Positions 2,301 to 55,587 of a DNA stretch of 64,000 nucleotides are shown in pieces. The notes under the pieces were generated by a model. That model was not told the DNA's origin. It saw only the letters and a program-made list of their open reading frames with translations, and did not search any database. Origin of the DNA: a virus; the IMG/VR virus record IMGVR_UViG_3300012147_000007, positions 53,230 to 117,229 of that record, one strand, 5' to 3'. Position 1 is the first letter of the stretch, and every line of letters begins with the position of its first letter. The position numbers and the translations under genes are program-made.

Positions 2301-2306
2301 TACCTA

Positions 2307-2314: not shown

Positions 2315-2318
2315 TGGC

Positions 2319-2350: not shown

Positions 2351-2375
2351 AATATTTTTAAACTAAAACTATTTC

Positions 2376-3773: not shown

Positions 3774-3818
3774 ATGCAAATTTAAGATTTTTAAACATAA
3801 AAATCAAATAAAAATAAC

Positions 3819-4247: not shown

Positions 4248-4262
4248 ACAAAAATCATTTAA

Positions 4263-4270
4263 TATAAATA
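4263..4270 (-). promoter_or_regulatory. TATTTATA element before tagged gene 3819-4247
   Basis: Exact 8-mer, 15 nt before the ATG at 4247. Confidence 0.6.
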
Positions 4271-4329
4271 GTCTAAAAAAAAGGTGTCATAAGCCGTTAT
4301 TCTATAAAAAAGGCAACATTATTTTTAAA

Positions 4330-4339
4330 TTTACGTATA
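4330..4339 (+). promoter_or_regulatory. TTTACGTATA motif, copy 1
   Basis: Decamer 22 nt before the ATG at 4362; repeated exactly before the next plus-strand gene. Confidence 0.4.
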
Positions 4340-4361
4340 TAATATATACCTTTAAAGTAAT

Positions 4362-4757: not shown

Positions 4758-4780
4758 ATTTTCCAAACATTTTCTTTTTG

Positions 4781-4790
4781 TTTACGTATA
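4781..4790 (+). promoter_or_regulatory. TTTACGTATA motif, copy 2
   Basis: Decamer 29 nt before the endolysin ATG at 4820. Confidence 0.4.
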
Positions 4791-4819
4791 ACTTAATTGA
4801 ACCAATAGAACATTAAGTT

Positions 4820-5461: not shown

Positions 5462-5494
5462 AAAAACCCTCCAGCATTGCTGAAAGGTTCTTTT
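5461..5494. terminator. bidirectional terminator between endolysin and ssb
   Basis: Interrupted stem AACC...CAGC / GCTG...GGTT with an ATT loop, A run on the left and TTTT on the right. Confidence 0.7.
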
Positions 5495-5516
5495 AATTTA
5501 ATAAACAAAACTTAAT

Positions 5517-6026
5517 TTAGAATGGTAAATCATCCTGTGCTTTTGCGTTAGCAAAATCATTTGTTGCAACATACTCCTTAGTTTGCGCTTGAGCCTCTGC
5601 AACTGGTGCATTAGCTTTTTGTGCTGGAGCAGAGTTTTGTGCTGGAGCAGAGTTTTGTGCTGGAGCAGCGTCAGTACCGTTAGCTTTTGTTCCAGTGAAC
5701 AAAATTTTGTCAGCAACTACTTTAGTAGAATAAAAAGTAACCTCTTGACCATTAACTTCTTTTACGTAGCTATCAGTCTTTAATTTACCTTTTACGATAA
5801 ACCCAGTTCCTTTTTTTCCATAACTTCCTAAGAAATTAGCAAGACCATTCCAAGCCTCAACCTTAACCCATTCAGTAGTTTGAACTCTATCTCCACCAGC
5901 TTTAGGCGCATAAGAGTCGTTAATTGCGATAGACATGTTTGCAACAGCCTTATCACCATCTAATTGTTTTACTTCTGCATCAGCACCTAAAGTACCCATG
6001 ATAGTAACATCGTTTAATCCATTCAT
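5517..6026 (-). CDS. ssb: single-stranded DNA-binding protein (bacterial SSB type)
   Basis: 169 residues. Residues 1-110 are an OB fold of the bacterial SSB family (start MNGLNDVTIMGTLGADAEV; later TEWVKVEAWNGLANFL). A Pro/Ala/Gln linker follows, and the protein ends in the acidic tip DDLPF that docks partner proteins. T4 itself uses an unrelated gp32, so this phage has a host-type SSB. The linker is encoded partly by three 18-bp tandem repeats. A clear Bacteroidota sigma-A promoter lies upstream, and a bidirectional terminator separates it from the convergent endolysin gene. Confidence 0.95.
   Translation of the reverse strand: MNGLNDVTIMGTLGADAEVKQLDGDKAVANMSIAINDSYAPKAGGDRVQTTEWVKVEAWNGLANFLGSYGKKGTGFIVKGKLKTDSYVKEVNGQEVTFYSTKVVADKILFTGTKANGTDAAPAQNSAPAQNSAPAQKANAPVAEAQAQTKEYVATNDFANAKAQDDLPF
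5617..5670. repeat. three tandem 18-bp repeats in the ssb linker
   Basis: Three near-identical 18-bp units encode repeated APAQNS in the flexible linker of SSB. They keep the reading frame, so copy number can vary without breaking the protein. Confidence 0.9.
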
Positions 6027-6070
6027 GATTTTTAATTTTAAATTATTATTTGTTTCACTTAATTAGACTA

Positions 6071-6102
6071 CAAATCTATGTCACTTTTAGTTAACATCCA
6101 AA
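6071..6102 (-). promoter_or_regulatory. Bacteroidota sigma-A promoter for ssb
   Basis: On the minus strand the sequence reads TTTG, 20 nt, then TAGATTTG (TAnnTTTG), matching the -33/-7 pattern of Bacteroidota housekeeping promoters. It lies 44 nt before the ssb ATG. Confidence 0.75.
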
Positions 6103-6123
6103 TTTATTTTGACTTTTTTGATG

Positions 6124-6137
6124 TATTTATTAGAAAC
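6124..6137 (+). promoter_or_regulatory. TATTTATT-type late element before the sigma-like gene
   Basis: The plus strand reads TATTTATTAGAAAC, matching variants found before minus-strand structural genes. It ends 22 nt before the ATG at 6160. Confidence 0.45.
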
Positions 6138-6159
6138 AACTCATTAACATTACCAAACA

Positions 6160-7560
6160 ATGAACAAAGACGTTAAAAAAATAATTTCAGAAGCATTCAA
6201 TGAACTATATAAAGATTTGATTTCTGAAGCAGAAGCTGGTATGAATCCTGCAGACAAAGCAGCAGCAGATAAAATGATTGCAAGAGTTAAAACTTATGGA
6301 GATGCAAGTGGGTTCTCAAACAATGGAGCAAACACAAAGCAGAATGATGTTTTTAACTACATATTAGATGCGCTTATTTCTGAATACAAAAGTACAGAAG
6401 ACCAAAATACTAAGCAAAAAATTAAAAATGGTATCCAGGGAGCTTTTTTCCCAGCAATGAATGCAGATGGAAGACCCAACAAGACATTAAATGTACTTAT
6501 GGGAAAATGGCCAGGAAAAGATAGAGATGCAGTTCAAGATGCTGCAGCTTCAGCGTATGAATCATTCATGAAAAACTTTGATGGGTTTATAGACAAATAC
6601 ACACCTGGAGCTGGAAGTAGTTTTGGTGGAATTGTTTTAAACAACTTGAATTCTAAAATGTATGATGTAATTCAAAAAGGATTTAGAGGAAAAGGCCTTG
6701 GTGGAACTCAGGATACTTATTCAAGAGCTGGAAACAGCATGGGCTCTATGGATGACCCTTATGGAGACGATAGCACACTTGGAGCGACAATGGCTGACCC
6801 AAACTCATTAGGAGCAGACAATGACACTGAAGCATCAATATCGGAAGACCAAGATTTATTGGCAATCGTTAATGGATGGCTTAAGAATAATGTTTCAGAA
6901 AAACAATACATCGCCTTTAGAGAACTTACAAAAGGATTTACTCCAAATGAAGTTGCTGAAGATTTCCCAGAGCATTTTGGAATTGGTAAAGATGTTTCAA
7001 GAAATTTCGCACAATTACTTTCGAGAAAAGAAAAAGATGAAGATGGAAACACTGCCCTTACGCTTGACAGACTTAGCGACATGCTTTCTTATGCAAAGAA
7101 AAGAGATATTGACTTGAAAAACATAGTTCTTAAAAATCTTAGACAAACTATCTCTCAAGACCCAAGCTTCTCTGGGGATGGAAAACGTTCTTACGTATCT
7201 TCTCCTGAAACAAAAGCGGCTCTTAAAGATTTGAGCGATTCAATGTATGAACTTGGTCCAGATGTTTTAAGCAAACTTGGAGTTAAAGATAAAATTGATT
7301 TCCAAAATGGAGCTCAAATTTCAAAAATTATAAACAAACTTACTGTCCTTGGATTGGAAAGTGAGGTTCGTGATATTGAAGATGCTTGGGCTGATGTTAA
7401 AAGAACAAGAGATGCCTCAGCTGATTATGGTAAAGTAACTAACTATGCCGACAAAGTAGATGAAAGCGGTATCGCAGGAATGTTTGAAGGACTTGATGTC
7501 TATGATGGTTTCGATATAGAAATTCTTATGAACAGAGTTATGCAAAGATTATCAAAATAA
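6160..7560 (+). CDS. sigma-70-like protein with possible capsid-targeting N-terminus
   Basis: 466 residues. Residues 1-25 form the acidic helix tag and end in LISEAEAG, which contains an I-x-E/A site. About residues 126-175 resemble sigma region 2 (DAVQDAAASAYESF, then DKYTPGAGSSFGGIVLNNL), and about 245-295 resemble sigma region 4 (VSEKQYIAFRELTKGFTPNEVA, then a second helix). A C-terminal part of about 170 residues is not recognised. It is longer than normal ECF factors (about 180 residues). It may steer host RNA polymerase; if the tag is real, it could be packaged and injected. The gene stands alone on the plus strand with its own terminator. Confidence 0.6.
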   Translation: MNKDVKKIISEAFNELYKDLISEAEAGMNPADKAAADKMIARVKTYGDASGFSNNGANTKQNDVFNYILDALISEYKSTEDQNTKQKIKNGIQGAFFPAMNADGRPNKTLNVLMGKWPGKDRDAVQDAAASAYESFMKNFDGFIDKYTPGAGSSFGGIVLNNLNSKMYDVIQKGFRGKGLGGTQDTYSRAGNSMGSMDDPYGDDSTLGATMADPNSLGADNDTEASISEDQDLLAIVNGWLKNNVSEKQYIAFRELTKGFTPNEVAEDFPEHFGIGKDVSRNFAQLLSRKEKDEDGNTALTLDRLSDMLSYAKKRDIDLKNIVLKNLRQTISQDPSFSGDGKRSYVSSPETKAALKDLSDSMYELGPDVLSKLGVKDKIDFQNGAQISKIINKLTVLGLESEVRDIEDAWADVKRTRDASADYGKVTNYADKVDESGIAGMFEGLDVYDGFDIEILMNRVMQRLSK

Positions 7561-7584
7561 ACTTAATTTTATAAAATTAGAAAA

Positions 7585-7609
7585 GACACCTCATTGGGTG
7601 TCTTTTTTT
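7585..7609. terminator. bidirectional terminator
   Basis: GACACC / GGTGTC stem with a 6-nt loop, followed by seven T on the plus strand and a T-rich run on the minus strand. It sits between the convergent genes at 6160-7560 (+) and 7611-7829 (-). Confidence 0.9.
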
Positions 7610-7610
7610 G

Positions 7611-7829
7611 TTATAACAACAATGCTTTAAAGTTTTGATTGTCTATCTGCTGAGGAACCCCATCGACAAGTTTATAAATATTAAGGTCTGAATCAAATAG
7701 AACTAAATCATAATTCATATCTTCTTCTGTAAGAATTTTGTCATTCTCCATATCCTTAATTCTCACGATGTGCCTCTTGAGTCTTGACGCAAACATTTTA
7801 TCAACTTTATCGTGAAATTCTTTATTCAT
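7611..7829 (-). CDS. hypothetical small protein (72 aa)
   Basis: Not recognised. Charged N-terminal helix with many Lys/Asp residues, then a beta-like segment YDLVLFDSDLNIYKLVDGVPQ. It ends 2 nt from the bidirectional terminator and follows the membrane-protein gene at 7847-8395 by 17 nt, so the two are probably co-transcribed. Confidence 0.55.
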   Translation of the reverse strand: MNKEFHDKVDKMFASRLKRHIVRIKDMENDKILTEEDMNYDLVLFDSDLNIYKLVDGVPQQIDNQNFKALLL

Positions 7830-8678: not shown

Positions 8679-10193
8679 TTATTCATAAATCATAAAATAT
8701 AGTTTATGCTTTGAGCGACTAACAGCTACGTAATGAATATTCTTAGACTCTTCATCTTTTTCAGTAAAAGAAACTCTCTCCAGGCGTTTTTTTCCAAGCT
8801 TGTCGTAAATTCCGCACTCCTGAAGAACTTCTGGAGAAACAGAATTAACAACAACACACTCATCAAACTCACGCCCTTTACTCTTGTGTATTGTAGTAAT
8901 AAATTTCTTAGACTTTTTGAACTGCTCTATGAACGTCATTAATTGGGCATCATTTTCGAAGTGACCCTTGAAGTTATTCATTTTACCTCTAAGGTGAGAA
9001 TCTACATCTCCTCCTTTGTATTTCTTAATATCAGCATCGTTGATGAAATTGAAGTACTTCATTGGAACCTTCCTCTTTAGCAGTTCTTTCTCAAGTTTTC
9101 TAATTGTAGCATTTGTCCTAACCAGCACAACAACTTCTCCTGGTTGTTTCAACAATTCAACAAGCTCATCTAACCTAAGCATCACTTTCCTGTCAACATC
9201 ACCTTTGTCTGCGCTATTTGCAGTCGCTGTAAGAGACGAATACTTATTTGAGTTCTCTACAATCAACTCATCACTTCTAAAGTTGACAGAGAGGCTCATT
9301 TCGGTAACATCACGCCTTTTCTTTAGCATTGACTCAAGTTTGCTACAGTTTGCTCCAGAGTATCCATAAATACTTTGATTACGGTCACCAATTAAATAGT
9401 AATACTTAGCATTTAACGAAAGAAGTGTTTGAAGCTGTATAGTACTCGTATCTTGATACTCATCTACAAATATGTAATCATACTTATCTCTAAACATCTT
9501 AAGCCACTTATTCTCTCTTAATAAATCACGAACCTCAATAAGCATGTCAGAAAAATCTCTTTTCTTTGTTACTCTTAAGAATTTTCTGTAATCATTATAA
9601 AACTGAGGAACTGGAGCCTTTACATTATCAGCAGACTGCAACTTAAATGAACCTATAGCTGAAGACAGCTGTTCAGCATCTTCATACATGTTTGCAATAA
9701 GTTCAAAGTGAGCCTCTTTTTGTTCTTTAGTAGCGTGACTACTTGGTTTATGCTCTTGTCTGAACCAGTTTAAAAACTCATAAAATGACGCTATCGCTTT
9801 ATACTTTTTCATACTGGCAAGCAAACTATTAGAGAATGCATGTATAGTAGTAATCGTACAACCCTGTCCATGAGAACTTACTTTCTCACGAACTTGAATC
9901 CCTGCAGACGCAACCCTTTCTCTAAGCTCATCAGTGGCAGCTTTTGTGAAACTGAAAAATATAATCTTGTTTGGGTCAACACCTCTATCAACAAGAGACT
10001 TTAACCTTTGAACACAACTGAATGACTTTCCTGAACCAGCTGTTGCCGCAAGTATTAAAGAATCTTTTTCTGAATAATTTATAAATGCACTCTGCTCATC
10101 TGTATATTGAATCTCTGATTTTTTTGCGTGCGATGTACCTTCGAATAAATCAACTTGACCTCTGTCTATTGTAATTTCTTTCTTTTTTCCCAT
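8679..10193 (-). CDS. UvrD/Rep-type DNA helicase
   Basis: 504 residues, superfamily 1A helicase. Seen: Q-like motif YTDEQSAFI (about 30), Walker A AATAAGSGKS (about 49-58), Walker B FVDEYQDTS, motif III GDRNQSIYGYSGA, motif IV-V with TTIHKSKGREFD, and motif VI VAVSRSKHKLYF. It is shorter than UvrD (about 720) because the accessory domains are reduced. It probably assists replication, repair or recombination, in the place of T4 Dda or UvsW. Its start overlaps the end of the endonuclease gene at 10166-11002 by 28 nt, and a possible remnant of an older start lies beyond that gene. Confidence 0.93.
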   Translation of the reverse strand: MGKKKEITIDRGQVDLFEGTSHAKKSEIQYTDEQSAFINYSEKDSLILAATAGSGKSFSCVQRLKSLVDRGVDPNKIIFFSFTKAATDELRERVASAGIQVREKVSSHGQGCTITTIHAFSNSLLASMKKYKAIASFYEFLNWFRQEHKPSSHATKEQKEAHFELIANMYEDAEQLSSAIGSFKLQSADNVKAPVPQFYNDYRKFLRVTKKRDFSDMLIEVRDLLRENKWLKMFRDKYDYIFVDEYQDTSTIQLQTLLSLNAKYYYLIGDRNQSIYGYSGANCSKLESMLKKRRDVTEMSLSVNFRSDELIVENSNKYSSLTATANSADKGDVDRKVMLRLDELVELLKQPGEVVVLVRTNATIRKLEKELLKRKVPMKYFNFINDADIKKYKGGDVDSHLRGKMNNFKGHFENDAQLMTFIEQFKKSKKFITTIHKSKGREFDECVVVNSVSPEVLQECGIYDKLGKKRLERVSFTEKDEESKNIHYVAVSRSKHKLYFMIYE

Positions 10194-11002
10194 TTTAAAA
10201 TTTCTTTTTCTAAAATCGCTTCAATATTTTTCTTATCATAATATGGTATTCTTAAAAGCTTTTTATTTGTTTTTTTGCAAAATTCATTTTTTATAGAATC
10301 ATTTTCTTTAATCTTTTTAAAGTTCGAATCACTCTTTTTTGAAATTGTGAATCTGGGCTCAAAATGCTGCTCTCCATCATATTCAATGCACATATCATAA
10401 TTTGGAAGGTAAAAGTCAAATGGAAGGTAGTTAATATTCTTACATTCATCAAATTTCTTTTGAGATTCATATAAAACCCTTTTGTTATCCAAGAATCTTT
10501 TGACCTCCCTTTCTCCGTGAGACAATCTACACCTTGGACACCCTTGTCCAGCTTTATGTTTCCCTGGAGACTGTTCAAAAACGCCATGATTTTCACAAAT
10601 TATTTTAACTTTAGTTTTATCACCAACATATTCAACTAATGAATAATTATAATTATCTCCATGTACTTCTGCAAACCTTTTTATAGCATCAGATTTATCG
10701 TCTGTTTTCTCTTCTTTTGCACAACAAGGACATCCTATACCTTTTAAATGATTCCATATACATTGCTCAAAAACTCCATGTTTTTTACAAATTATCTTAG
10801 CCTTATCTTTAACTTTTTCATACCAAACCAAAGAATAGTCATATCTGCCGCTATGGACTTCAATGGCTTTGTTTATATTTTTCTCAACCCTATCTTTTTT
10901 TGATTTTTCGTAACATATCTTACATCTGGTTCCATTGTTTGGGATAATTATCCTACCTCCATCTGGATGTAGTTTACACTTTCTTGTTCTAACTTTTTTC
11001 AT
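10166..11002 (-). CDS. Vsr-like (EDxHD-type) homing endonuclease with zinc repeats
   Basis: 278 residues. An N-terminal Cys cluster and two repeats of the CKKHGVFEQ...GCPCC type (DUF723-like zinc modules, about residues 45-95 and 105-160) probably bind DNA. The C-terminal nuclease has GEREVKRFL followed by FDFYLPNYDMCIEYDGEQH, the layout of EDxHD/Vsr-like phage endonucleases such as the I-Bth0305I family. It is a selfish gene placed just before the UvrD-type helicase. A TATTTATA element ends 13 nt before the ATG, inside an inverted repeat. Confidence 0.8.
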   Translation of the reverse strand: MKKVRTRKCKLHPDGGRIIIPNNGTRCKICYEKSKKDRVEKNINKAIEVHSGRYDYSLVWYEKVKDKAKIICKKHGVFEQCIWNHLKGIGCPCCAKEEKTDDKSDAIKRFAEVHGDNYNYSLVEYVGDKTKVKIICENHGVFEQSPGKHKAGQGCPRCRLSHGEREVKRFLDNKRVLYESQKKFDECKNINYLPFDFYLPNYDMCIEYDGEQHFEPRFTISKKSDSNFKKIKENDSIKNEFCKKTNKKLLRIPYYDKKNIEAILEKEILKWEKRKKLQ

Positions 11003-19179: not shown

Positions 19180-20574
19180 TTAGCCAGAATTTGACGCTCC
19201 GTTATCTAAAAATAACGCAATCTCATCGAGAGATTGTTCGTTTTCTGCTGGCCTACTTGCAACAACCCCTTCTTCGTTTTCGTTTGCCATTTCAATCAAA
19301 ACTCTGCTCGTATCAAACAACAGTAGTTTATAAAGCCCATCTTGACCGTTTCTGTTCTTAATTATCCCAAGCATAGCTCTACTTATCTCTTTCATTTCAT
19401 CTGGCCTACCAAGCCCAAAAGCAAGGTCAACCGTTGCAATAATACCCAACGACTCCCCAATGTGTCCAGTATTAATTTTCTCCTCCTGAATCGCAGAACG
19501 ATTTGTTTGGTGAGCTGTCCAAACTGGTATTCTGTAATTATTAGCAATATTCCTTAACCCCTCTGCAACATCTGTTAAAGCATGTCTCATTTCAGCATAA
19601 GAACCAAGAGGTTTCATAAGACCAAGGTAATCTACAAATATAATATCTGGAACGAAACCTTCAAGTTCAAGAGTTTTAAGATGCGCCTTAATTGTATTAA
19701 CTGTAACACCGCCTTCAAGAAACTCTTTAATCTTTAATCCACCACCAAGCTTTGCAACATCTTCAAGCTTTTCTGTAATGTATTCTGGATACTCCCAAAC
19801 ATGCTTTAACTTAATGTCATTAATACACGCATCAAACCTCTGCCCTACCACGTCTTCTGATAACTCCATAGAATAGTAGACAACATTCTTACCTTCAAGA
19901 AGAGCTGTTGCAGCCCCTTTTACAAGCATCATCGACTTACCCCCTCCTGGAGGCGCAATCACAACTCCAAGCTCTCCTGGGGACAATCCGCCCCCAATAT
20001 ATTCATCAAGGTCTCTCATGAATGGAATCGGCATTCTAAAGTCTTTACTAAGCCTTTTGTTTACATCCTTAAAATAATCGTGACCAGAGTCTTTTGGCTG
20101 ACCAGCCTTTAATGCTTCTTCAAAATCTTTTAAGATGCTATCCCACTTATTTTTCTTCCAATTTTCTGCTGCCCTAAGAATTACTTCTCTAACATTTCTT
20201 TTTACAAAAAACTCCCTCGATGACTCTTGAACTTCTACTTTGTCTTCAACTTTTAAGGCTTCTATTTTATCAATAAGACCAAGAATATGCTCTCTTGGAA
20301 TACCTCTTTCTTTGAAGGATACTCTATCTCTCAGAGTTCCAAATCTGATAATAGTTCCTCTATCGTTGTAGTATTGTATACAGTAATCAACAAGAATTTT
20401 TTGGTAGCCGTCAAAATAACTACTTTCGAGAATGTCAACAATAGTCTCAGAAAAACCAGTCCTATCTTCACAAAAAACGTGAATAAATTTGTTCTGATAA
20501 TTTGAGTTTAGGGCGCTATCCCCTTCGTCCTCTTGTGCAAAGGAATTGAATACATTGCTGTTCATATTACTCAT
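19180..20574 (-). CDS. replicative DNA helicase (DnaB/gp41 type)
   Basis: 464 residues. Hexameric 5'-3' helicase at the fork. Seen: N-terminal helical domain (1-160), Walker A VIAPPGGGKSMM (about 213), H1a-type YSMELSEDVVGQR, Walker B DIIFVDYLGLM, and the AHQTNRSAIQ arginine/glutamine sensor region. Similar in length to T4 gp41 (475). No primase gene is visible in the window. It is preceded by a sigma-A promoter. Confidence 0.95.
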   Translation of the reverse strand: MSNMNSNVFNSFAQEDEGDSALNSNYQNKFIHVFCEDRTGFSETIVDILESSYFDGYQKILVDYCIQYYNDRGTIIRFGTLRDRVSFKERGIPREHILGLIDKIEALKVEDKVEVQESSREFFVKRNVREVILRAAENWKKNKWDSILKDFEEALKAGQPKDSGHDYFKDVNKRLSKDFRMPIPFMRDLDEYIGGGLSPGELGVVIAPPGGGKSMMLVKGAATALLEGKNVVYYSMELSEDVVGQRFDACINDIKLKHVWEYPEYITEKLEDVAKLGGGLKIKEFLEGGVTVNTIKAHLKTLELEGFVPDIIFVDYLGLMKPLGSYAEMRHALTDVAEGLRNIANNYRIPVWTAHQTNRSAIQEEKINTGHIGESLGIIATVDLAFGLGRPDEMKEISRAMLGIIKNRNGQDGLYKLLLFDTSRVLIEMANENEEGVVASRPAENEQSLDEIALFLDNGASNSG

Positions 20575-24350: not shown

Positions 24351-25988
24351 TTAGAAATAAACCCCTTCTGATGATAAATCTTTATAATTTACACCAGATT
24401 TGTAGTCAATTGAGAACATCATGCCTCTATGAAATGAAAGAATTTTAGCTATTTCTTCGACAAGAAATTTTTCATCTGGATGCATGTCAAAAACAAGAGA
24501 ATCATGAACTTGAAACAGAAAGCTGCTTGAATAGCCTTTTAGTAATTCTTTTATCTCACAAACTTTATCAATTACTATTTCAGAAGCTGTAGATTGAATG
24601 TAATTGTTAAATCCAGCATAAGATTTTTCTGGATTTATTATTGAACCCCATTTGTTGATTATATACCCGTCAGCTTCCGCTTGAAGCATTAACTCCTTAG
24701 ATTTGGAGAATAATGGGCTCAAGAATTCTTTGACCCTTAGCATCTTCTCAATTGGATATTCTTCTCCTTTAAGCTTTTTTAATACAGTAGCCTCGCTTGC
24801 TCCATAAAGTATAGAGTGATTTACGAGTTTTGCAACATCTCTTTGCTCTGGCGTAAACTCCATTGATTCAAAAATAATCCTGGCAGTCTCAGAGTGCAAA
24901 TCTTTATCATAAAACCTTTGAATAAACTCCTCGTCTTCACTAAGGTACAACGCAATTCTCACCTCAAAAGAAGTGTAGTCAAATTGATATATCCTACCAT
25001 TTCTAAATTTAGAAATTATCTTTGTTCTTTCTTCGTTGCTTTTTGAAAGGTTTTGAGGATTATACCTGTCCTTGCTTGTTATCCTTCCTGTAATTGTTCT
25101 TTTGTTTGAATAGTTTATTTTGGCAAGCTTTGCGTTTTCACGATAAATGAAATCAAGATTTTTATCAAAATCATACACAAAAGGTATGTATCTTGTAGAC
25201 ATCCATCTTGTTATTTTGTCTCTAACGCACATTCTTTTAAAAAAGACTTCTTCATCATCATCAAGACTTAAATCATCAAGAGGTATTTTGCTCATTAGAA
25301 ACGGGACATATTTACTGATGTTTACATTTGTAATTATTTGAAAATATTTCAAAGGAGTCTCTACTCCAAATTTAATCCACCTGATAATATCAAGAGTTCT
25401 GATGTCTCCAAGAGAATCAAGGTCAACATAATCCTCTATTCCATCATGAGAATAAATTAAACAATTCATGCTATTAAAAACCTTTGATAGCTCTAATCTA
25501 TAATTACCTTCTGTAAGAAACATATTTTTTACATTTACAATGTAATTTTTGTTTCCATTCCGCATGTATAAAGCTCCTTCATTGAAGTGTATGTAAGTTA
25601 TAATTTTCTCATCTATAACATCATCAACAAACTTACTAAAGCTACCATGAACAAGTGAATCAAACAAATCATAATCCGATGGAAGCCATGCGTATAAGTT
25701 TTTGTTTACAAATTCTTCAATATTTCTATGAAAGTTTTGACCTTGTATTTCTGAAGCTTCAACAGAATTATAGGTCCAATATAGATTTTCAGAAACTTCA
25801 CTGTCACTTATTTTCTGATTAGGAAAATTACTCTTCATAAAATTCCACCCCACCATTAGTGTAGCAACTTCATAATATCCATCATCTGGTATTTTTGTGG
25901 TAATTTCAACAGGATAACCGCCTAAGAACTGTTTTAAGTCATTAGCTGATTCTATCGTGTCTACTATAATTTTGCAAATCCTAAACAT
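24351..25988 (-). CDS. family-A DNA polymerase without exonuclease domain
   Basis: 545 residues. Polymerase domain from about residue 260: motif A IYQFDYTSFEVRI, motif B RDVAKLVNHSILYG, motif C FLFQVHDSLVF. The metal-binding Asp residues are present. The O-helix position usually Phe or Tyr (E. coli 762) is His391 here. The N-terminal half has no recognisable 3'-5' exonuclease motifs. A second, DnaE-type polymerase is also encoded in this window, so the two may divide replication and repair or primer processing. T4 relatives instead use a family-B enzyme. Confidence 0.92.
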   Translation of the reverse strand: MFRICKIIVDTIESANDLKQFLGGYPVEITTKIPDDGYYEVATLMVGWNFMKSNFPNQKISDSEVSENLYWTYNSVEASEIQGQNFHRNIEEFVNKNLYAWLPSDYDLFDSLVHGSFSKFVDDVIDEKIITYIHFNEGALYMRNGNKNYIVNVKNMFLTEGNYRLELSKVFNSMNCLIYSHDGIEDYVDLDSLGDIRTLDIIRWIKFGVETPLKYFQIITNVNISKYVPFLMSKIPLDDLSLDDDEEVFFKRMCVRDKITRWMSTRYIPFVYDFDKNLDFIYRENAKLAKINYSNKRTITGRITSKDRYNPQNLSKSNEERTKIISKFRNGRIYQFDYTSFEVRIALYLSEDEEFIQRFYDKDLHSETARIIFESMEFTPEQRDVAKLVNHSILYGASEATVLKKLKGEEYPIEKMLRVKEFLSPLFSKSKELMLQAEADGYIINKWGSIINPEKSYAGFNNYIQSTASEIVIDKVCEIKELLKGYSSSFLFQVHDSLVFDMHPDEKFLVEEIAKILSFHRGMMFSIDYKSGVNYKDLSSEGVYF

Positions 25989-47788: not shown

Positions 47789-48391
47789 TTATCTATTTGA
47801 TGGTACATAATTTTCATTTATAGTACCATCGTCATTTAACTTACAATGCACTACTCCGTGGCAATTTGAACAAAGTAAAATACATTTATTTAATTCAGGC
47901 AATAAATTAATCCAAGATTTTTTTCTCATCTTATTCCAATTCATTTCTTTTTCTTCTGGCTTTTCGTGGTGAAATTCAAAACTTGCATAATGTCCTTTAA
48001 ACCCACAATCTACACAACGCCCACCCAAATGCTCTATTGCCCTTTTTTTAAAAACCCTTGCTCTTTCAATATCGTGCTTTCCACTACAGTCTCTACATCT
48101 ACCATAGACTTTCAAACTATTGGGTGAAAAATCATCCTTTATTCTATATGTCTCACAATCATAACACCATTGATGCTCATCTGGACATTCTCCTCTTTTT
48201 TCTAAATTTTCTCTATACTCTAAAATCTTCTTAGCGTGCTCTGGATTTTCCTTTTTAATTCTATTTAATCTCCTCTCTTTCTCTGCTAATCTAAAACACA
48301 CTTTACAATCCAACCTCCAACTTCTATTATGCTTATGATACTCTTCTAAATCCTTTACCTCATTACAAGTTCTGCATTTTCTTTCTTCCAT
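47789..48391 (-). CDS. HNH endonuclease with zinc-finger N-terminus
   Basis: 200 residues. Three Cys-rich knuckles (CRTCNEVKDL; CYDCETYRIKDDF; CVDCGFKG) and an HNH core: SFEFHHEKPEEK, then NKCILLCSNCHGVVH. Likely a homing endonuclease. TATTTATA ends 8 nt before the ATG, and an inverted repeat (48378-48415) spans promoter and start. Confidence 0.85.
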   Translation of the reverse strand: MEERKCRTCNEVKDLEEYHKHNRSWRLDCKVCFRLAEKERRLNRIKKENPEHAKKILEYRENLEKRGECPDEHQWCYDCETYRIKDDFSPNSLKVYGRCRDCSGKHDIERARVFKKRAIEHLGGRCVDCGFKGHYASFEFHHEKPEEKEMNWNKMRKKSWINLLPELNKCILLCSNCHGVVHCKLNDDGTINENYVPSNR

Positions 48392-48447: not shown

Positions 48448-48879
48448 TTATTCACCCTTTTCTAAAAATGATATATCAAGAGTCCATTTTTTCTTACTTC
48501 TTTCTTCCCAAATATTAAACACTTCCTCAATATAATCATCTGCCTGCTTATCAGTTAAACAATTTATTTTCATCATATGTGCTTTAATTTCTTTTTCTTT
48601 TCCAGAAATTCTTGCATATCCAAAATGCTTTGTAGAATGACAATTTGGACAAAGCGCAATTAATCCCTTAAGAGTCTGCTCACAAGACTCATCATCATAA
48701 TTCCAAATTTCGTGACACTCCACGGGATGCTTCGGGCCCTTACCGCTGCAAACTTCACATTTATATTCTGCTTTCTTATAGCAGTCTTTTCTAAGGACAT
48801 CCCACTCTGCTTGTGATACATTGGAGCGCACGTTATTATAAAAAGAAGATGCAGGCACAAGTTCTATAGTTAAAATCAT
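48448..48879 (-). CDS. HNH-family protein with rebuilt N-terminus
   Basis: 143 residues from the ATG at 48879. Typical bacterial and phage HNH family: IELVP...NVRSNVSQAEWD, CEVCSGKGPKHPVECHEIW, LIALCPNCHSTKH, and WTLDISFLEK at the end. The first 16 codons (MILTIELVPASSFYNN) differ in DNA from, but parallel, a stub (MKLTIELVPQTAWFKN) that lies beyond the inserted LAGLIDADG gene. The stub's TAW matches the usual family start better than ASS does. Confidence 0.88.
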   Translation of the reverse strand: MILTIELVPASSFYNNVRSNVSQAEWDVLRKDCYKKAEYKCEVCSGKGPKHPVECHEIWNYDDESCEQTLKGLIALCPNCHSTKHFGYARISGKEKEIKAHMMKINCLTDKQADDYIEEVFNIWEERSKKKWTLDISFLEKGE

Positions 48880-48881
48880 AA

Positions 48882-49850
48882 TCAATTAAATTTATCCCAT
48901 TTATGTGTACAAATAAACTTATTTTCCTTAATAAATCCAATTAAATAATCAATAACAATTGGATTATATATTCTAAGTCTAAAATAGGAATCTTTTTGTT
49001 TTAAAGCTTTTTTACTCAAAGTTACATTAAAAATATCTTCTAAGCGTTTTATCCAATATTTTAATATTAACTTCCAATTTTCATGAGAAGTAATAGTTAT
49101 ACATCTCGAATTTTTCTTGCTTAAATATAAACTACCATCTCCATCAATGAATCCTATTAAAAAACTTAAAAAATTTTCATCTGACATTTTATTAAAAACA
49201 CTCAAAGAAGGCGGGAAATATGTTTTAGTTTTTTCTCCCTTTTTATAATTTATATCATACTTTTTATTTATCAAAGGAATTACTTTTGAATCTTTTAAAT
49301 AACATATAGCGCTCCCATTACTAACTGTATCAACTCCTAATATATTTACTTTTTTCACTTCATCGTATAGTTTAATATTTTTACAACCAATATAATTAGC
49401 AAAACCAATAACAACTTCCTTATTTTTCATACACTGATTCAGTTGTATCTTTTTATTTGTAAAATATCCATCAGCAAATAATAGACCTATGTAATAATAT
49501 GTTTTAACACTCTCATTCAATAGAATTTCAACATTAGAGTCTCTCATTGTTGAATATTGGTATTCTGCTCTTTTTAATTTTAATTTTTTAGCTTTTGCTA
49601 AAATAGAGCTCCAACTTCTGTTTTCCAAAAGTTTCAATAATTTTTCAGAAGAAGAGTTTGAATAGTATTTTATTATAATATTCTCTTCCATTTCTGACCA
49701 TAAATTTTCTTCTGTTATTCCAAGTGCTTTTTTTCTATTTTTTACAGAGGGAATTGTTCTTCCAACTAATTCAGCTAAATACTTAATTGGAGATTCTATA
49801 TTGTTTTTTAAAATAAAATCCTCCTGCTCTGTCCATCTTTTGTTTTTCAT
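48882..49850 (-). CDS. LAGLIDADG homing endonuclease with SANT/Myb-like N-terminus
   Basis: 322 residues. Two helix-turn-helix (SANT-like) modules at about 1-90 (RWTEQEDFILKNN; LWSEMEENIIIKYY). Two LAGLIDADG helices: YYIGLLFADGYF (about 117) and FLIGFIDGDGSLY (about 228), each with its catalytic Asp. It is free-standing, not within an intron or intein, and sits in the 5' end of the HNH gene. TATTTATA lies 16 nt before the ATG inside a 9-bp inverted repeat. Confidence 0.92.
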   Translation of the reverse strand: MKNKRWTEQEDFILKNNIESPIKYLAELVGRTIPSVKNRKKALGITEENLWSEMEENIIIKYYSNSSSEKLLKLLENRSWSSILAKAKKLKLKRAEYQYSTMRDSNVEILLNESVKTYYYIGLLFADGYFTNKKIQLNQCMKNKEVVIGFANYIGCKNIKLYDEVKKVNILGVDTVSNGSAICYLKDSKVIPLINKKYDINYKKGEKTKTYFPPSLSVFNKMSDENFLSFLIGFIDGDGSLYLSKKNSRCITITSHENWKLILKYWIKRLEDIFNVTLSKKALKQKDSYFRLRIYNPIVIDYLIGFIKENKFICTHKWDKFN

Positions 49851-49851: not shown

Positions 49852-49929
49852 TTACATGTATTTTATTATAAATACATGAAAATTTTTAAACCAAGCCGTC
49901 TGTGGTACTAATTCAATTGTTAGCTTCAT
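49852..49929 (-). pseudogene. truncated 5' end of the HNH gene
   Basis: 25-codon ORF starting MKLTIELVPQTAWFKN, whose first 16 residues match the HNH gene's start; it then runs into the promoter of the LAGLIDADG gene. The ATG lies inside the end of the dnaE C-terminal gene, as expected if the HNH gene once followed dnaE directly. It marks the endonuclease insertion point. Confidence 0.8.
49855..49878 (-). promoter_or_regulatory. inverted repeat enclosing TATTTATA before LAGLIDADG gene
   Basis: Nine-bp perfect arms CATGTATTT / AAATACATG with a 6-nt loop; TATTTATA at 49867-49874 overlaps the upstream arm. The ATG follows 4 nt after the inner arm. Confidence 0.6.
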
Positions 49930-52252
49930 CTTCTTTTTTACTTAAATCTTTATCAACTCGAACGATTCTCGTTCCTCTCTTAAAATTAACATAACCTTTT
50001 TCGTTCTTTTCAAACTCAGCAACATAAATGCCATTGGCAGCAAGGAGTGGTTGTAGAGATTTCGCAACTGGGTCGAAAGCTCTAAGTGTTGTGAAACTAA
50101 TTCCATCACCAACTCTCATTGTTAAATATTCTTTTCCATTCTTACTCATAGAAACCTTAAAGGTATCTACCACAAAAATGTAGAAATCATTATCATCAAA
50201 ATTAATAATTGTCTCAACAAGCTTATCTCTCTTAGCTCTCTTGTTTACATCAGCCTTTATGTCCTGAATGTACTTTATTTTTTCAAGGTCAAAATTACAC
50301 ACCTCAAGGAAATCTGTTCTTTTCGATGCCCAGTTTGTTGGAGGATATTTGTTCTCTTCTTTTTTAACTGGAATGTCAAAAGCTTCGTCATTCATATCAA
50401 ACAAAACAGTTTGATTTGCGTTTACTTTCTTTTTCTTTTTTGTCTTAGACTTAAGGTCAGCAAGCTGTTCTCTTGAATCGCTCCAATCATCAAATACGCC
50501 AGCTTTAAGGCAAGCTTCAAAAGCACTTTTATTAAACTTGCTAAACGGCAATCTAAAGAACAAACTCATACTCACAGTCTCAAGGGTTTTTTTCTCCTGA
50601 CCTTCTTTGACTTTTATTTCTTTAATCAAATCAAGCATCTCTTCGTATGCAATTGGGCCCAATCCGTTAATACCAGAGAATCCCATAGAAATTTCGTGCT
50701 CACCAGTCATTGTCCATCTCCATCCAGACTTTCTTGATGGCATCTTTATCTCAATCCCTTTTGACATCGCAGAAGCAATTGCAGAACCAATCCAAGCTTG
50801 CTGTTTTTCTTTGTTACCAGACTTAGGGTGATTTAGAAGGGCGGTATAAAACTCGGTTGGGTAGTAGTGTTTTAAATACAAAGTTTGCATCGCCAAATAA
50901 CTATATGAAAGTGCATGAGACTTATTGAATGAGTATCCAAGGTATTGAATTACCCAATCTTTAATTTTATCTACATCACCTTTGTCATAACCTTGAGCTG
51001 CAGCCCCATCTAAGAACATGTTCCAATACTGCTGGAAACCTTTCCAGTTCTTGTCGTTTTTCTCTGTATCAGTTAGCGTCTCTCCCGCTGAATTTCTTGC
51101 AATAATTTTAGATGCCTTATCCATATACCTTCTAAGCATATCTCCTTTACCAAGACCCATTCCACCAATCTTATCAGCAATAAACATAAGTTGTTCCTGA
51201 AACACAAGTACTCCATTCGTTTCTCCAAGAATCGGCTTCAACGCAGGGTGGATATATTTAATCTTCTCTGGGTTGAATTTGTTTACGATAAACTCTTCGT
51301 GTGCGCCAATTCCCATTGGGCCTGGACGATACAGTGCGTTGGCAGCAACAAGTTCTTCAAATTTATCAACTGCAATACCTCTAATAAGATTGTTCATACC
51401 ATGACTCTCAAACTGAAATATCCCATGATTAAGACCAAGCCTTAATTCTGTAAATAACTTTGGGTCTTCAAGGTCAACGTAATCAACTTTTTGAGAAATA
51501 TCTTCTCCCGTTGTTCTTTTTACAATGTCAACAGTTTCCTTAATTACATTTAAGGTTTCTAATTTTAATCTATCCAATTTTAGAATCCCAAGTGCTGAAA
51601 GGTCTTTTCCAGACTTATCCGCCTCCTGAAACGCTGTAACAACACTTCCGTTGGATGTGATTACATTGGTTGGAATATAATCCCAAGATAACCCTGGTGT
51701 AATTACAACTCCTGCAGCATGCTGTCCAATACCTCTAATGTTTCCATGAAGCTGGAGAGCAGTCTCAATCATCTCCTTATTTTTTGGCTCTCTAATCCAA
51801 TTTCTAACTTCTGGACTACACTCTGGTTTATCTGGCCAAGTTTCAAACCAATGCCTAAGAGTGTCGTTGTAATTTAAGAAGTTCGGCATCTCCTTTGTTA
51901 ATTTAAACACTCCAGAATCAAACCCAGTAGCATCGCTTCCACGATATGCACGAACAACATCCTTAATTGTATTCTTCTCAGAAAATGTAGAAAAAGTAGC
52001 AACAGACATAACACGTTCTTTTCCATACTTGTCTTGTAGGAATTGATTTGTTACATCATCTGTACCTGTCATAAAATCAATATCAATATCGGGAGGAGAA
52101 TTGTGAATTAAAACACTTGAAATCAATGAGTTATAGCAATCATCTAAAGTTTTACTTGAACTGTAAAAAAGATTATCTTTATCAAAAGATAAATCATAAA
52201 CCTTATTTTTATAATCAATTTTATTTATTGATTTTATTTTTGATAATCTCAT
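49913..52252 (-). CDS. dnaE: DNA polymerase III alpha, C-terminal half with C-intein
   Basis: 779 residues. Residues 1-51 are a C-terminal split intein (KVYDLSFDKDNLFYSSS as block F, SSVLIHN as block G) followed by Ser52. The remainder is the DnaE catalytic and C-terminal part: PPDIDIDFMTG (two metal Asp), IRGIGQHAAGVVI, GILKLDRLKLETL (third Asp), ALYRPGPMGIGA and SFNKSHALSYSY. On its own it is not a complete polymerase; joined to the N-terminal gene it would give a continuous FLNPERN-SPPDIDIDF. Overlaps the endonuclease stop (ATGA). Confidence 0.95.
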   Translation of the reverse strand: MRLSKIKSINKIDYKNKVYDLSFDKDNLFYSSSKTLDDCYNSLISSVLIHNSPPDIDIDFMTGTDDVTNQFLQDKYGKERVMSVATFSTFSEKNTIKDVVRAYRGSDATGFDSGVFKLTKEMPNFLNYNDTLRHWFETWPDKPECSPEVRNWIREPKNKEMIETALQLHGNIRGIGQHAAGVVITPGLSWDYIPTNVITSNGSVVTAFQEADKSGKDLSALGILKLDRLKLETLNVIKETVDIVKRTTGEDISQKVDYVDLEDPKLFTELRLGLNHGIFQFESHGMNNLIRGIAVDKFEELVAANALYRPGPMGIGAHEEFIVNKFNPEKIKYIHPALKPILGETNGVLVFQEQLMFIADKIGGMGLGKGDMLRRYMDKASKIIARNSAGETLTDTEKNDKNWKGFQQYWNMFLDGAAAQGYDKGDVDKIKDWVIQYLGYSFNKSHALSYSYLAMQTLYLKHYYPTEFYTALLNHPKSGNKEKQQAWIGSAIASAMSKGIEIKMPSRKSGWRWTMTGEHEISMGFSGINGLGPIAYEEMLDLIKEIKVKEGQEKKTLETVSMSLFFRLPFSKFNKSAFEACLKAGVFDDWSDSREQLADLKSKTKKKKKVNANQTVLFDMNDEAFDIPVKKEENKYPPTNWASKRTDFLEVCNFDLEKIKYIQDIKADVNKRAKRDKLVETIINFDDNDFYIFVVDTFKVSMSKNGKEYLTMRVGDGISFTTLRAFDPVAKSLQPLLAANGIYVAEFEKNEKGYVNFKRGTRIVRVDKDLSKKEDEANN
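52100..52252 (-). other. C-intein coding segment (51 codons)
   Basis: Ends in His50-Asn51, the terminal pair needed for Asn cyclisation, with Ser as the +1 extein residue. An extra segment (KTLDDCYNSLI) lies between the block F strand and block G. Confidence 0.88.
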
Positions 52253-53328
52253 AATTTACTTGCTTCTATTTGACTTTTTATATATACTAAAACATTTTCT
52301 TTATTATCCTTCCAGTCTTTTTCCCAAATTTCTATATAACTACAATTAATAACACTTATAATTTCATTCTTTCTTTTTCTATCATCTCTCCAAATCTCAG
52401 ATGCCAATCTTTTTTTGTTTTTATGATAAAAATCATGACTATAAATCATTGGATTACAATGCCAATAATCACCCATAATTTCAATAGCTATATTGTGTTC
52501 ATTATTATAATAATCAAGTTTATAAAATTTACTTTTGTTTACAATTAAAACTTTTTGACCAAATTCAGAATTATAATGATAAGAATCGTTTAATCCTAAA
52601 TTTTGTAATTCTAAAATAATTTCCCTCTCCAAGTTAGAGGATTCTCCTAAGTTTTTATTTGTTTTTTTAGCATTTTCCATTTGCCACTCTTTATCCATAA
52701 ACAAATTATCTACTCCAAACTTATCCTGCATAGTCATTGTTACAGCTGAATAATGACAACCACGCTCCAAGAACCAACTCACACCATACCTATCATCCAT
52801 GGTCTTAGAAATCTTATCCTTAATCTTCTTATATTGAATTGGTGCCTTAAGACCAGTTGTTCCAAGATTTTTATTCAAAGACTTTTCATATTGACTTCTA
52901 TACTCTTTAGTCTTATAATAAAGTGATTTATAATCTTTCTCAGATAATACGTGTCCATTAGACCAGAATTTAATACCCTTTCTTGATGGGTGTAGGTCTA
53001 TTAGCTCATCTTTCTCGGAAAACTTATTGTACATTTTAACCTTTGACTCAGTTAATGAATAATCCTGGTTTCCACACTTAATAAGAACAGCACTGTGTCC
53101 TCTTGGTCCTTTTCCAAAATAGCAATCTTCAACAATTCCGATAAAACTTTCTTTATTGTACAATTCTTTTCCAATTAAATTTTCAATAGAAACCGATAAT
53201 TTACTTTTATATGGCCATATTTCTATTTCGTTATTATCAGCTTTTTTAAAGTCAAAAAACTCACACAACCCAGCAACTAAATCACTCTGACCATCGAACT
53301 CAATATTTAACAACTCTTCTTTTTTCAT
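52249..53328 (-). CDS. Vsr-like homing endonuclease inside the fractured dnaE
   Basis: 359 residues from the ATG at 53328 (MKKEELLNIEF); an upstream TTG is ignored because the TATTTATA element lies between. The N-terminal 200 residues may bind DNA; the C-terminal nuclease has LEREIILELQNLG, KLDYYNNEHNIAIEIMGDYWH and YIEIWEKDW, the Vsr/EDxHD layout. Endonucleases of this type are known from fractured genes with split inteins. It sits between the two dnaE halves and overlaps the downstream one by 4 nt. Confidence 0.85.
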   Translation of the reverse strand: MKKEELLNIEFDGQSDLVAGLCEFFDFKKADNNEIEIWPYKSKLSVSIENLIGKELYNKESFIGIVEDCYFGKGPRGHSAVLIKCGNQDYSLTESKVKMYNKFSEKDELIDLHPSRKGIKFWSNGHVLSEKDYKSLYYKTKEYRSQYEKSLNKNLGTTGLKAPIQYKKIKDKISKTMDDRYGVSWFLERGCHYSAVTMTMQDKFGVDNLFMDKEWQMENAKKTNKNLGESSNLEREIILELQNLGLNDSYHYNSEFGQKVLIVNKSKFYKLDYYNNEHNIAIEIMGDYWHCNPMIYSHDFYHKNKKRLASEIWRDDRKRKNEIISVINCSYIEIWEKDWKDNKENVLVYIKSQIEASKL

Positions 53329-53342
53329 AATTATAAAATCTG

Positions 53343-53360
53343 TATCTATAAATATAGATA
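53343..53360 (-). promoter_or_regulatory. inverted repeat with TATTTATA before dnaE endonuclease
   Basis: Perfect 8-bp arms TATCTATA / TATAGATA separated by 2 nt; contains TATTTATA (53347-53354), 18 nt before the ATG. Confidence 0.5.
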
Positions 53361-53385
53361 AAAACTTCAAACGATATTTGTATTT

Positions 53386-55587
53386 TTAAAACACAAACAA
53401 TTGGTCGCTCTCCATAATACCATCTACACGAACTTCAATTCTCTCGCCATCCCTAAAAACAGGAACAATATGGCACCCAGTCAACTCAACTATAGCTCCA
53501 TCTTCAGTTTCAATTTCATAAACATTCTCGTTTTCCTTAAGCTCTCTCTCGTGCTTTTGAACCAAGGTTCCAAGTCCGTGTTCTGTCTGAACTGGGTCTC
53601 CAACCTCTACTTCAACGATGTTCTTATAAGAGCCATCTTTCATCATGACATTGCAGTTTGATGTTAAACAGTTTCTTTCTGGATTTAGGAAACGCTCAAA
53701 ATAAAGATTAAACCTTATTGGGTCAATCTTTGTAATATCAAGACACCACGACAATAGACTTCCTGCTGCAGAACCTCTGGCTGGGCCAATGTCATGACCT
53801 TCGTTTCTGTAGAAATTAATAATCTCCCAGTTTACAAGAAAGTAATCAAGCATCTTCTTTGATTCAATAATACTAATCTCATAATTAAGACGGTCAACAT
53901 ACTCATTAACCTTTTCATCGGTCATCTCAACGATTCCATTTTTCTTATATATCTCAACTTTTTGCTTTAACTTAATAAACGCAAGTTTTACAATAATCTC
54001 CTCTGGCTTATCTGTGCCAAAATATTCTATTATTTTTTCAGTTGGCTCATATCTTGGATATTTCTCAGTACCAGTATCAAATTCAAAATTACACCTATCA
54101 GCTATAATGTTTGTATTTTTCATACAAAGTTCAAGAAACTTTTCAGGATACTTAAATCCATACTTTTCGTTCATTTCTCTATAGTCATCGCTATTGAAGT
54201 AGTATAACTCTCTGTTTTCTTTCAGAGAACAATAGGCAAGCATACGATGTTGCTTAATAGATGTAACTACATCTTGAAGCTTTGAATCCTCTCTTCTTGG
54301 ATAGTAGGTGTCATTGCTCATTACTGGAAGCAATTTATACTTACTCATCATTTTAATCAAGAAGTTGTTATACTGCTTCTGAGTGGCGAACTTACTAAAC
54401 TTAAACTCCACTATCAAATCTTCTCCAAACTCGCTCCTAAGCATGTTAAGATAGTTCTCTGCGTCAATAACCTTTCCTTTAAGAACCAGGTTTGCTAATT
54501 TACTATCAAGACCTGAGGTAGATATTATTAAACCCTCTTTATATTTCAAAAGCCACTCTGTAGTTATTCTTGATTCTTTCTTAAATAACCCCTCTGTGTT
54601 TGCGAGGTATATCAAATGATTCAGATTTCTATATCCAATTTCATTTTTTATGAAAATCTTTATTTTATAATTATCTCCCTCAAGCTCTCTGTCTTCAAAT
54701 TTTCCAATATTGTCATTCAAGAAAGACTCGACACCAAAAACTGGTTTAATCCCTTTTGACTTACATTTATTGAAGAATTCAAATGAACCAGATAATGTTG
54801 AGTTATCTGTTATTGCCATTGAGGTGTGGCCATACTCTTTTGCAAGCTTAATATACTCGTCTACAGAACCAGCTCCATCAAGAATAGAGTGAAATGTATG
54901 GAGACCAAGTGGAGTTACTCGGATTGAATCGCCCGCTTGCATAGGTTTCTCTTCTGCAACTTTAGTAAGAGAATCCATTAAATCTTCTGCGCCCTCTTCT
55001 TCTTTGAATCCAAGGATGCCTATTCTTTGAAGTTCGAAAAAACATTTTGCAAGCGCAGTAACATCCGCAAGTGCATCGTGAGCATCTTCGAATCCTTTGT
55101 CAAATAATTTTTGGTGAAGTTCTGTTTGAGAAGGAAATTTCATCCCACTCCTACCTCTTTTGTTTGGAATTGCCACGAAGTCAGTTGTGAGCTTCATGGT
55201 GTCAATGTGATTTATGTCTGGAATGCAGTTGTACATTCCCTCTCTAAGGAATTCACAGCCTGTTACATTTTCATCAAAGGAAATGTTGTGAGCAATAAGA
55301 TGCTTATTGTTCTTTACAGCTTCTGAAAACTTTTCAAGCGCCTGCCTCAAAGGAACTCCATCCTCTTTAGCTCTCTCGTTTGTAATCCTATGAATCGCTA
55401 TTGCTTCATCAGGAATCCTAAACCCTTGAGGTTTAATAATTAAATTCTGAGAATCTGTCTCTACACCATTCGCATCAAAGATTTTCCAAGCAATCTGAAC
55501 CATTCTTGGCCAGTTGTTAAAATCAGTAATTGGTGCGCTAAAATTCTTTGCCTTACCAGTTGTTTCGGTATCAAATACTATATACAT
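53386..55587 (-). CDS. dnaE: exonuclease-PHP-polymerase III alpha, N-terminal half with N-intein
   Basis: 733 residues. 1-190: intact DEDDh proofreading exonuclease (VFDTETTG, IAHNISFDEN, HDALADV). About 225-480: PHP domain (LHTFHSILDG; AITDNSTLSG, where the usual metal His is Asn). Then the start of the polymerase core (GPARGSAAGSLLSW, YFERFLNPERN). From Cys640 to the end is an N-intein of 94 residues. An exonuclease-DnaE fusion recalls PolC but in a different order. The exonuclease may explain why the separate DnaQ-like protein has decayed. Confidence 0.95.
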   Translation of the reverse strand: MYIVFDTETTGKAKNFSAPITDFNNWPRMVQIAWKIFDANGVETDSQNLIIKPQGFRIPDEAIAIHRITNERAKEDGVPLRQALEKFSEAVKNNKHLIAHNISFDENVTGCEFLREGMYNCIPDINHIDTMKLTTDFVAIPNKRGRSGMKFPSQTELHQKLFDKGFEDAHDALADVTALAKCFFELQRIGILGFKEEEGAEDLMDSLTKVAEEKPMQAGDSIRVTPLGLHTFHSILDGAGSVDEYIKLAKEYGHTSMAITDNSTLSGSFEFFNKCKSKGIKPVFGVESFLNDNIGKFEDRELEGDNYKIKIFIKNEIGYRNLNHLIYLANTEGLFKKESRITTEWLLKYKEGLIISTSGLDSKLANLVLKGKVIDAENYLNMLRSEFGEDLIVEFKFSKFATQKQYNNFLIKMMSKYKLLPVMSNDTYYPRREDSKLQDVVTSIKQHRMLAYCSLKENRELYYFNSDDYREMNEKYGFKYPEKFLELCMKNTNIIADRCNFEFDTGTEKYPRYEPTEKIIEYFGTDKPEEIIVKLAFIKLKQKVEIYKKNGIVEMTDEKVNEYVDRLNYEISIIESKKMLDYFLVNWEIINFYRNEGHDIGPARGSAAGSLLSWCLDITKIDPIRFNLYFERFLNPERNCLTSNCNVMMKDGSYKNIVEVEVGDPVQTEHGLGTLVQKHERELKENENVYEIETEDGAIVELTGCHIVPVFRDGERIEVRVDGIMESDQLFVF
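53389..53670 (-). other. N-intein coding segment (94 codons)
   Basis: Starts with Cys1 (CLTSNCNVMMKDG, block A), continues through VGDPVQTEHG and ends shortly after block B (VELTGCHIVPVF, with the T-x-x-H motif). No endonuclease domain is included. The site is just before the catalytic PDxDxDF loop. Confidence 0.88.

Follow-up and report, generated by a model that had tools for sequence, protein, structure and literature searches.

A replicative polymerase gene that is broken in two raises the question of whether its halves still yield a single enzyme, and of what the break itself represents. We analysed such a case in a 64,000-nucleotide (nt) stretch of the IMG/VR virus record IMGVR_UViG_3300012147_000007 (positions 53,230 to 117,229; hereafter the window), where dnaE, the gene for DNA polymerase III alpha, is divided between two genes with an endonuclease gene between them. 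Positions are those of the window, its locus is numbered L001, and related loci are numbered from L002 onward. The best explanation, to which we give a probability of about 0.87, is that a mobile split-intein cassette occupies this viral dnaE, making it a 'fractured gene'. According to this explanation, the two dnaE genes would be translated separately, and the N-terminal and C-terminal intein parts (IntN and IntC) would come together as a HINT domain that joins FLNPERN to SPPDIDIDF by trans-splicing. The product would be an exonuclease-PHP-polymerase of 1367 residues (639 + 728), the sum given by the first-pass annotation of the locus. A Vsr/EDxHD-type homing endonuclease would cleave dnaE alleles that lack the interruption, at the join or close to it, and repair of the cut would copy the cassette into them.

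The split dnaE locus and its intein

The N-terminal gene runs to FLNPERN and continues for 94 residues that start with CLTSNC and contain LTGCH (a T-x-x-H motif), while the C-terminal gene opens with 51 residues ending in LIHN, followed by SPPDIDIDF. The first-pass annotation had described both junctions in these terms, and at the level of sequence its observation of a split-intein dnaE is confirmed as real. All three reading frames of the locus are open, and the endonuclease stop overlaps the start of the C-terminal dnaE gene by 4 bases (Table 1). The endonuclease frame could also begin at its first TTG (52249-53370, 373 aa), the ATG at 53328 being the likelier start. The same split is found at 100% identity in IMGVR_UViG_3300028361_000012 and 3300012031_000007, and a third contig, 3300035034_003151, is cut within the endonuclease gene but holds its beginning together with the N half and IntN.

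Profile matches place PF00929 (RNase_T), PF02811 (PHP) and PF07733 (DNA_pol3_alpha) in the N-extein, with a DnaQ-like exonuclease at residues ~3-183, PHP at 229-395 and the start of the polymerase domain at 555-639. In the C-extein, PF07733 and PF17657 (finger domain) score over the cut-off and PF14579 (HHH_6) just under it, so that PHP, palm and finger domains follow each other across both genes in the order of DnaE, as in a DNA polymerase III alpha. The phrog_405 profile is matched at positions 34-440 by the N-terminal gene and 441-1025 by the C-terminal gene; likewise, E. coli Pol III alpha chains with the former to about residue 399 and with the latter from 398. Because both references are covered contiguously by the two halves, the polymerase loses nothing at the break, which immediately precedes PDIDIDF, a motif that we take to hold catalytic aspartates.

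The residues expected of an intein are conserved around this insertion site, which is the second of three described below (sites a, b and c). C1, T64 and H67 are invariant in all 11 IntN of site b, in agreement with class 1 HINT domains at position 1 and in block B, and HN followed by Ser is present in 10 of 10 loci that are split at site b and have a C side (7 aligned rows and 3 further loci). PF01079 (Hint) matches IntN at 2.1e-06, just under its cut-off, and PF14890 matches IntC weakly (0.028). The best structural model of IntN, with a mean predicted local distance difference test score (pLDDT) of 84.3, was aligned by VIA-align from residue 1 to a hedgehog Hint domain (Z 9.2, the best match) and to inteins that include gp41-1, Npu DnaE and NrdJ-1; the 50 best matches listed were all inteins, hedgehog or other Hint domains. 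The best Foldseek match of this model had an E-value of 1.1e-03. IntN is thus predicted from its model to adopt a HINT fold, and the earlier identification of a split intein finds support both in this alignment and in the empty alleles of relatives. The trans-splicing to an exonuclease-PHP-polymerase that the first-pass annotation proposed is likewise consistent with homology and the predicted fold.

The endonuclease matches phrog_3339 ('homing endonuclease') at 5.5e-08. Its model has a mean pLDDT of 78.2 and a predicted template modelling score (pTM) of 0.47, with residues 180-229 poor. The C-terminal domain was aligned to 3hrl (Z 11.5), to the catalytic domain of I-Bth0305I, 3r3p (Z 10.8, root-mean-square deviation 2.8, 96 residues), and to Vsr, 1cw0 (Z 10.7). 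Foldseek ranked Vsr fourth (E 0.04) and 3r3p fifth (E 0.11), after three Toxoplasma mitoribosome chains. E234, D272, E283, D287 and H290 are invariant in the nine rows of the endonuclease's own alignment. A Vsr/EDxHD-like catalytic fold is what the model predicts for this domain, in line with the Vsr-like endonuclease that had been proposed between the halves on the same strand. Residues 47-130 gave only matches under Z 5 (KOW/Tudor-like), the first 230 residues being barely probed by the fold search. A scan of genome contigs with the endonuclease alignment returned four relatives, each partial.

Table 1. Features of the split dnaE locus, in window positions
Feature	Position	Strand	Description or evidence
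N-terminal dnaE gene	53386-55587	-	733 aa = 639 extein residues + 94 aa IntN
N-extein, 639 aa, ending FLNPERN	53671..55587	-	Pfam, phrog_405, E. coli Pol III alpha coverage
N-intein (IntN), 94 aa, Cys1, T64-x-x-H67	53389..53670	-	conserved residues, Hint profile, model
Hairpin with TATTTATA box (box 53347-53354)	53334..53369	-	between IntN stop and endonuclease ATG
Free-standing endonuclease gene	52249..53328	-	359 aa from ATG; predicted Vsr/EDxHD-like domain ~231-359
C-terminal dnaE gene	49913-52252	-	779 aa = 51 aa IntC + 728 extein residues
C-intein (IntC), 51 aa, ending LIHN	52100..52252	-	sequence; HN kept in relatives
C-extein, 728 aa, starting S(+1)PPDIDIDF	49916..52099	-	Pfam, phrog_405, E. 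coli alpha coverage

Empty alleles, patchy distribution and rival explanations

Three close relatives (L002, L003 and L016; N-extein 88-89% and C-extein 92-93% identical to the window) are contiguous in frame across the break, and since they have the same polymerase undivided, the split is more than chance. Many loci that are more distant likewise have the two exteins side by side in a single frame. The empty site reads FLNPERD/SPPDIDIDF in L002 and ERN/SPPDIDIDF in others; site b is empty in 42 rows of the tree, of which 26 have Ser at +1 and 10 Gly, and 6 fall outside the pattern used.

The distribution of the cassette is patchy. A requirement for 800 aa or more of extein, free of stops, left 183 loci, which were reduced to 58 representatives; removal of the near-copies L033 and L109, both cut, and of the distant L160 and L229-L232 gave 51 rows. 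L058, which is too short, and L224 lie outside the 183 and hence outside the tree. On the resulting extein tree, a quick tree with some long branches, site b is occupied in 9 of 51 rows and requires 9 changes, site a in 4 rows with 4 changes, and site c in 7 rows with 6 changes. The fraction 9/51 is no prevalence, because the loci were gathered partly with intein-bearing or endonuclease queries, among the matches listed. The exteins of L018 are 50 and 56% identical to those of L001, its IntN and IntC 76% each and its endonuclease 57%. Extein data reject a grouping of L018 with the L001 clade in the approximately unbiased (AU) test (p-AU 9.9e-53; 7.5e-11 when the sisters of L018 are included), while intein and endonuclease data put it beside L001, L004 and L020 (79/91); with these data, two groupings that resemble the extein tree are disfavoured at p 0.0465 and 0.0068.

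Coding regions are under purifying selection. Between L001 and L004, the ratio of nonsynonymous to synonymous substitution rates (dN/dS) is 0.097 in the N-extein, 0.049 in IntN, 0.091 in the endonuclease, 0.165 in IntC and 0.084 in the C-extein, and within the group of L001, L004 and L020 it ranges over 0.04-0.11 in the exteins and 0.05-0.07 in IntN.

A number of observations weigh against a functional, mobile cassette. IntC gives dN/dS values of 0.69 and 0.43 in two L020 pairs (48 codons) and of 0.22-0.36 in other distant pairs, and several dS values are saturated. Over the whole record, PF14890 matches only the places of IntN and IntC, both under its cut-off; the five IntN models range in pLDDT from 84.3 to 58.8; no Foldseek match of the IntN or the endonuclease model reached an E-value of 0.001, and a profile search of PDB sequences with the endonuclease alignment gave no relevant hit. 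The groups compared in the intein-data tests were chosen after the trees were seen, and the intein tree has no starred branch, that of the L018 placement included. As regards co-conversion around the site, DNA identity does not rise toward it, so that homing into the window lineage, if any, was not recent. For the hairpin that precedes the endonuclease, covariation is not above that of shuffles, and hairpins are also found before some non-endonuclease genes. Finally, the gene at 24351-25988 encodes a protein with a family-A polymerase domain (DNA_pol_A), which means that dnaE may not be the sole replicase.

These points bear on three other explanations. The halves might assemble non-covalently, the intein pieces being remnants that no longer splice, for which phages offer precedents: nrdA of phage Aeh1, split by mobE, gene 60, split by mobA, and gene 43 of phage 25, split otherwise, give polypeptides that assemble, and activity is reported for the split nrdA and gene 43 cases (PMC2988022). 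Rossellomorea phage phiT1 (L237, PV767480.1 7192-17472) offers a useful contrast to the window, its two-gene dnaE at 4477-7759 keeping NPERSELPDIDVDF unbroken and showing no intein by eye, and the two high IntC ratios noted above would fit a loss of splicing. This explanation is nevertheless improbable, as Cys1, TxxH, HN and Ser+1 are retained in the split-b loci examined, the ratios of IntN in the L001/L004/L020 group and of IntC between L001 and L004 are low, and 145 aa of intein would, if not spliced, adjoin the PDIDIDF motif. It is less probable still that the split dnaE is dispensable and that the phage relies on its family-A polymerase: the DNA_pol_A protein is a possible substitute, but the low extein ratios argue that dnaE is still needed, and all three frames of the locus have stayed open. 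An assembly chimera or misread frames would be conceivable in a viral family whose contigs are all metagenomic; as other contigs carry the split in identical form and diverged relatives share its layout, we regard this as the most remote of the three. The mobile split-intein cassette thus remains the explanation that we prefer, and from it we infer splicing, cutting and homing.

Three intein sites in one polymerase family

Translation of the gaps in related loci defined three insertion sites: a (PARG/SAAG), b (FLNPERN/SPPDIDIDF, that of the window) and c (YSFNK/SHSLSY). Split inteins occupy site a in L020, L028, L058, L118 and L194, site b in 11 representative loci (only the N side being available for L058), and site c in L020, L030, L077 and L108; the sequence of L197 ends within an IntN of site c. 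L224 has contiguous mini-inteins at both site a and site c, and L114 and L145 have one at site c; none was seen at site b in the gap translations. An intact endonuclease frame lies in the site a gap of L058, L118 and L194, with none in L028, and in the site c gap of L030, L077 and L108. Near-identical loci record the loss of such a gene: L109 matches L108 with 99.94% identity along 3,381 upstream bases and 100% along 1,791 downstream ones, and it is without 1,011 bp of L108, so that its endonuclease gene is missing the start and the greater part of its length.

All three sites are split in L020 (IMGVR_UViG_3300017917_005124), a single contig whose dnaE is spread over four genes (701, 164, 535 and 362 aa). 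Of these, the second consists of the IntC of site a, 34 extein residues and the IntN of site b, and a small middle gene of the same kind is present in L058, on a different contig. None of the three gaps of L020 holds an intact endonuclease frame. Its three IntN are 26-32% identical to each other and its IntC 26-42%. Changes between split and contiguous forms number three on the site c intein tree (7 rows) and one on that of site a (6 rows), both trees being mostly unresolved.

We lean, by a modest margin of belief, toward a scheme in which three split-intein cassettes with different endonucleases occupy three sites of the polymerase core, the alpha subunit of L020 would be assembled from four polypeptides by three trans-splicing reactions that must not cross-react, and cassettes would shed their endonucleases and switch, at one and the same site, between the split and the contiguous state. 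Further matches to intein models occur elsewhere in the contigs of L020, L108, L109 and L058 (G001, G003, G004 and G005), and some of the viruses carrying these loci seem intein-rich.

Upstream element, neighbouring genes and known systems

The hairpin before the endonuclease has a predicted energy of -9.5 kcal/mol, and the 45 nt preceding the ATG give a folding z of -3.6 against mononucleotide shuffles. All eight other site-b loci with an intact endonuclease have a similar element at this place, although that of L018 is weak and those of L042 and L108 pair poorly. Its exact core, CTATATTTATAGATA, occurs in 30 of the 248 loci collected, all of them split at site b and drawn from only four of nine lineages (the window type, L004, L030 and L040). 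The TATTTATA box within the hairpin is present 22 times on the two strands of the window, 13 copies lying at most 70 nt upstream of one of 54 gene starts, at a distance of 11-28 nt; by this count it ranks first among 56 orders of its own letters, against 3 of 22 for the reverse complement. Given this enrichment, we read it as a putative phage promoter box. Since the box lies in the hairpin core, a transcript starting there would be without the 5' arm. The hairpin would then probably block translation of the endonuclease on dnaE read-through messages, and the box probably give the endonuclease its own transcript. A comparable layout is that of T4 I-TevI, where a promoter-like box lies in a hairpin just before the endonuclease start, within another gene's unit (PMC2988022); the window box is a candidate put forward for its enrichment.

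Among the window's five endonuclease-like genes, three have both box and hairpin, 47789-48391 has a box without a clear hairpin, and 48448-48885 has neither. Directly after the C-terminal half of dnaE lie 48882-49850, 48448-48885 and 47789-48391, one LAGLIDADG-like and two HNH-like, with TATTTATA inside a hairpin before the start of the LAGLIDADG-like gene. An HNH-type endonuclease gene at 10166-11002 (phrog_559, 1.6e-59) is likewise preceded by a hairpin around the box. Sequences of the form TTTG...TATATTTG stand upstream of 19180-20574 and 24351-25988; they resemble promoters of the Bacteroidetes type, a hint at the host group.

Fractured genes were reportedly described by Dassa et al. in 2009 (NAR) as enzyme genes whose halves carry a split intein and flank a Vsr-like endonuclease gene that stands free. 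The window locus has the same composition, a conserved enzyme gene, a split intein and an intervening gene for a predicted Vsr-like endonuclease; what sets it apart from the class as reported is that the gene is a viral exonuclease-fused dnaE whose relatives have three sites, all of them split in one contig, and contiguous forms at two. As this class has been described and recurs in the viral family, the locus is less unusual than the first-pass annotation held. Nor is the fused exonuclease tied to the split, being present in uninterrupted relatives as well. The more novel part is the set of three-site, four-piece and split or contiguous relatives, the window locus belonging to the known class.

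The cyanobacterial DnaE split intein (Ssp/Npu DnaE) shares the Pol III alpha gene and a similar fold, IntN being 21% identical to Npu DnaE (4qfq) in the Foldseek alignment; in contrast to the window, it is not known to have an endonuclease between its genes, and its insertion site lies elsewhere in DnaE. In Pseudomonas jumbo phage MIJ3, an endonuclease gene separates the two genes that encode PolB, which carry a putative split intein (PMC6892783): a replicative polymerase is split in both cases, but that of MIJ3 is of family B and its endonuclease of HNH type. T4-like phages Aes123 and Campylobacter phage CP21 have naturally split PolB inteins, which are in use (PMC12707363); these are again phage polymerase split inteins, although cysteine-less and in family-B enzymes. 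The RecA-like genes of Vibrio phage vB_VmeM-32 (KU160494) form two parts, one of them annotated HintC, that enclose a SegG-like endonuclease gene, with a recombinase as host gene and another endonuclease than in the window. The nuclease-domain fold predicted for the window endonuclease is common to Vsr and I-Bth0305I, the latter described among group I intron endonucleases (PMC3943268). As in the dnaE family, several intein sites occur in one replication gene in haloarchaeal MCM, which has four (PMC10643990), split forms being unmentioned in the accessible part of that paper. In the literature, with subscription papers mostly outside coverage, we found neither a phage dnaE with a split intein nor a natural gene in four split-intein pieces.

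Against phage records, megablast with the locus gave no match and tblastn with IntN hit 32 records (best E 2e-3). Prevotella phage Lak-B2 (L239, MK250021.1 383500-392500) has at 1738-5035 a helicase-like gene that looks fractured by eye under genetic code 15: one part ends in an IntN-like tail, the other starts IntC-like, and an endonuclease-like gene is also present. Streptococcus phage vB_SagM-GXN1 (L240, PQ819873.1 119310-128597) has at 3268-6229 terminase-like genes that, by eye, start with IntC-like segments and contain an additional intein-like break. By annotation only, the 13 features shown for Salicola phage SCTP-2 are all hypothetical proteins, as are 10 of 11 for Roseobacter phage DSS3P8, the other being a transposase; Bacteroides phages BS-TP1 and DAC16, also seen through annotation only, were not used.

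One gene family thus presents empty sites, split inteins with an endonuclease, split inteins whose endonuclease is broken or deleted and, at two of these sites, mini-inteins in contiguous form. A contiguous origin is the one generally believed for natural split inteins (PMC12707363), and the natural pairs found here make it testable whether contiguous inteins become split by insertion of an endonuclease gene and whether splits can heal. If our reading is true, the cassettes form a natural series for the origin or healing of split inteins, and the three natural split inteins of a polymerase made from four genes would provide parts for multi-fragment protein assembly.
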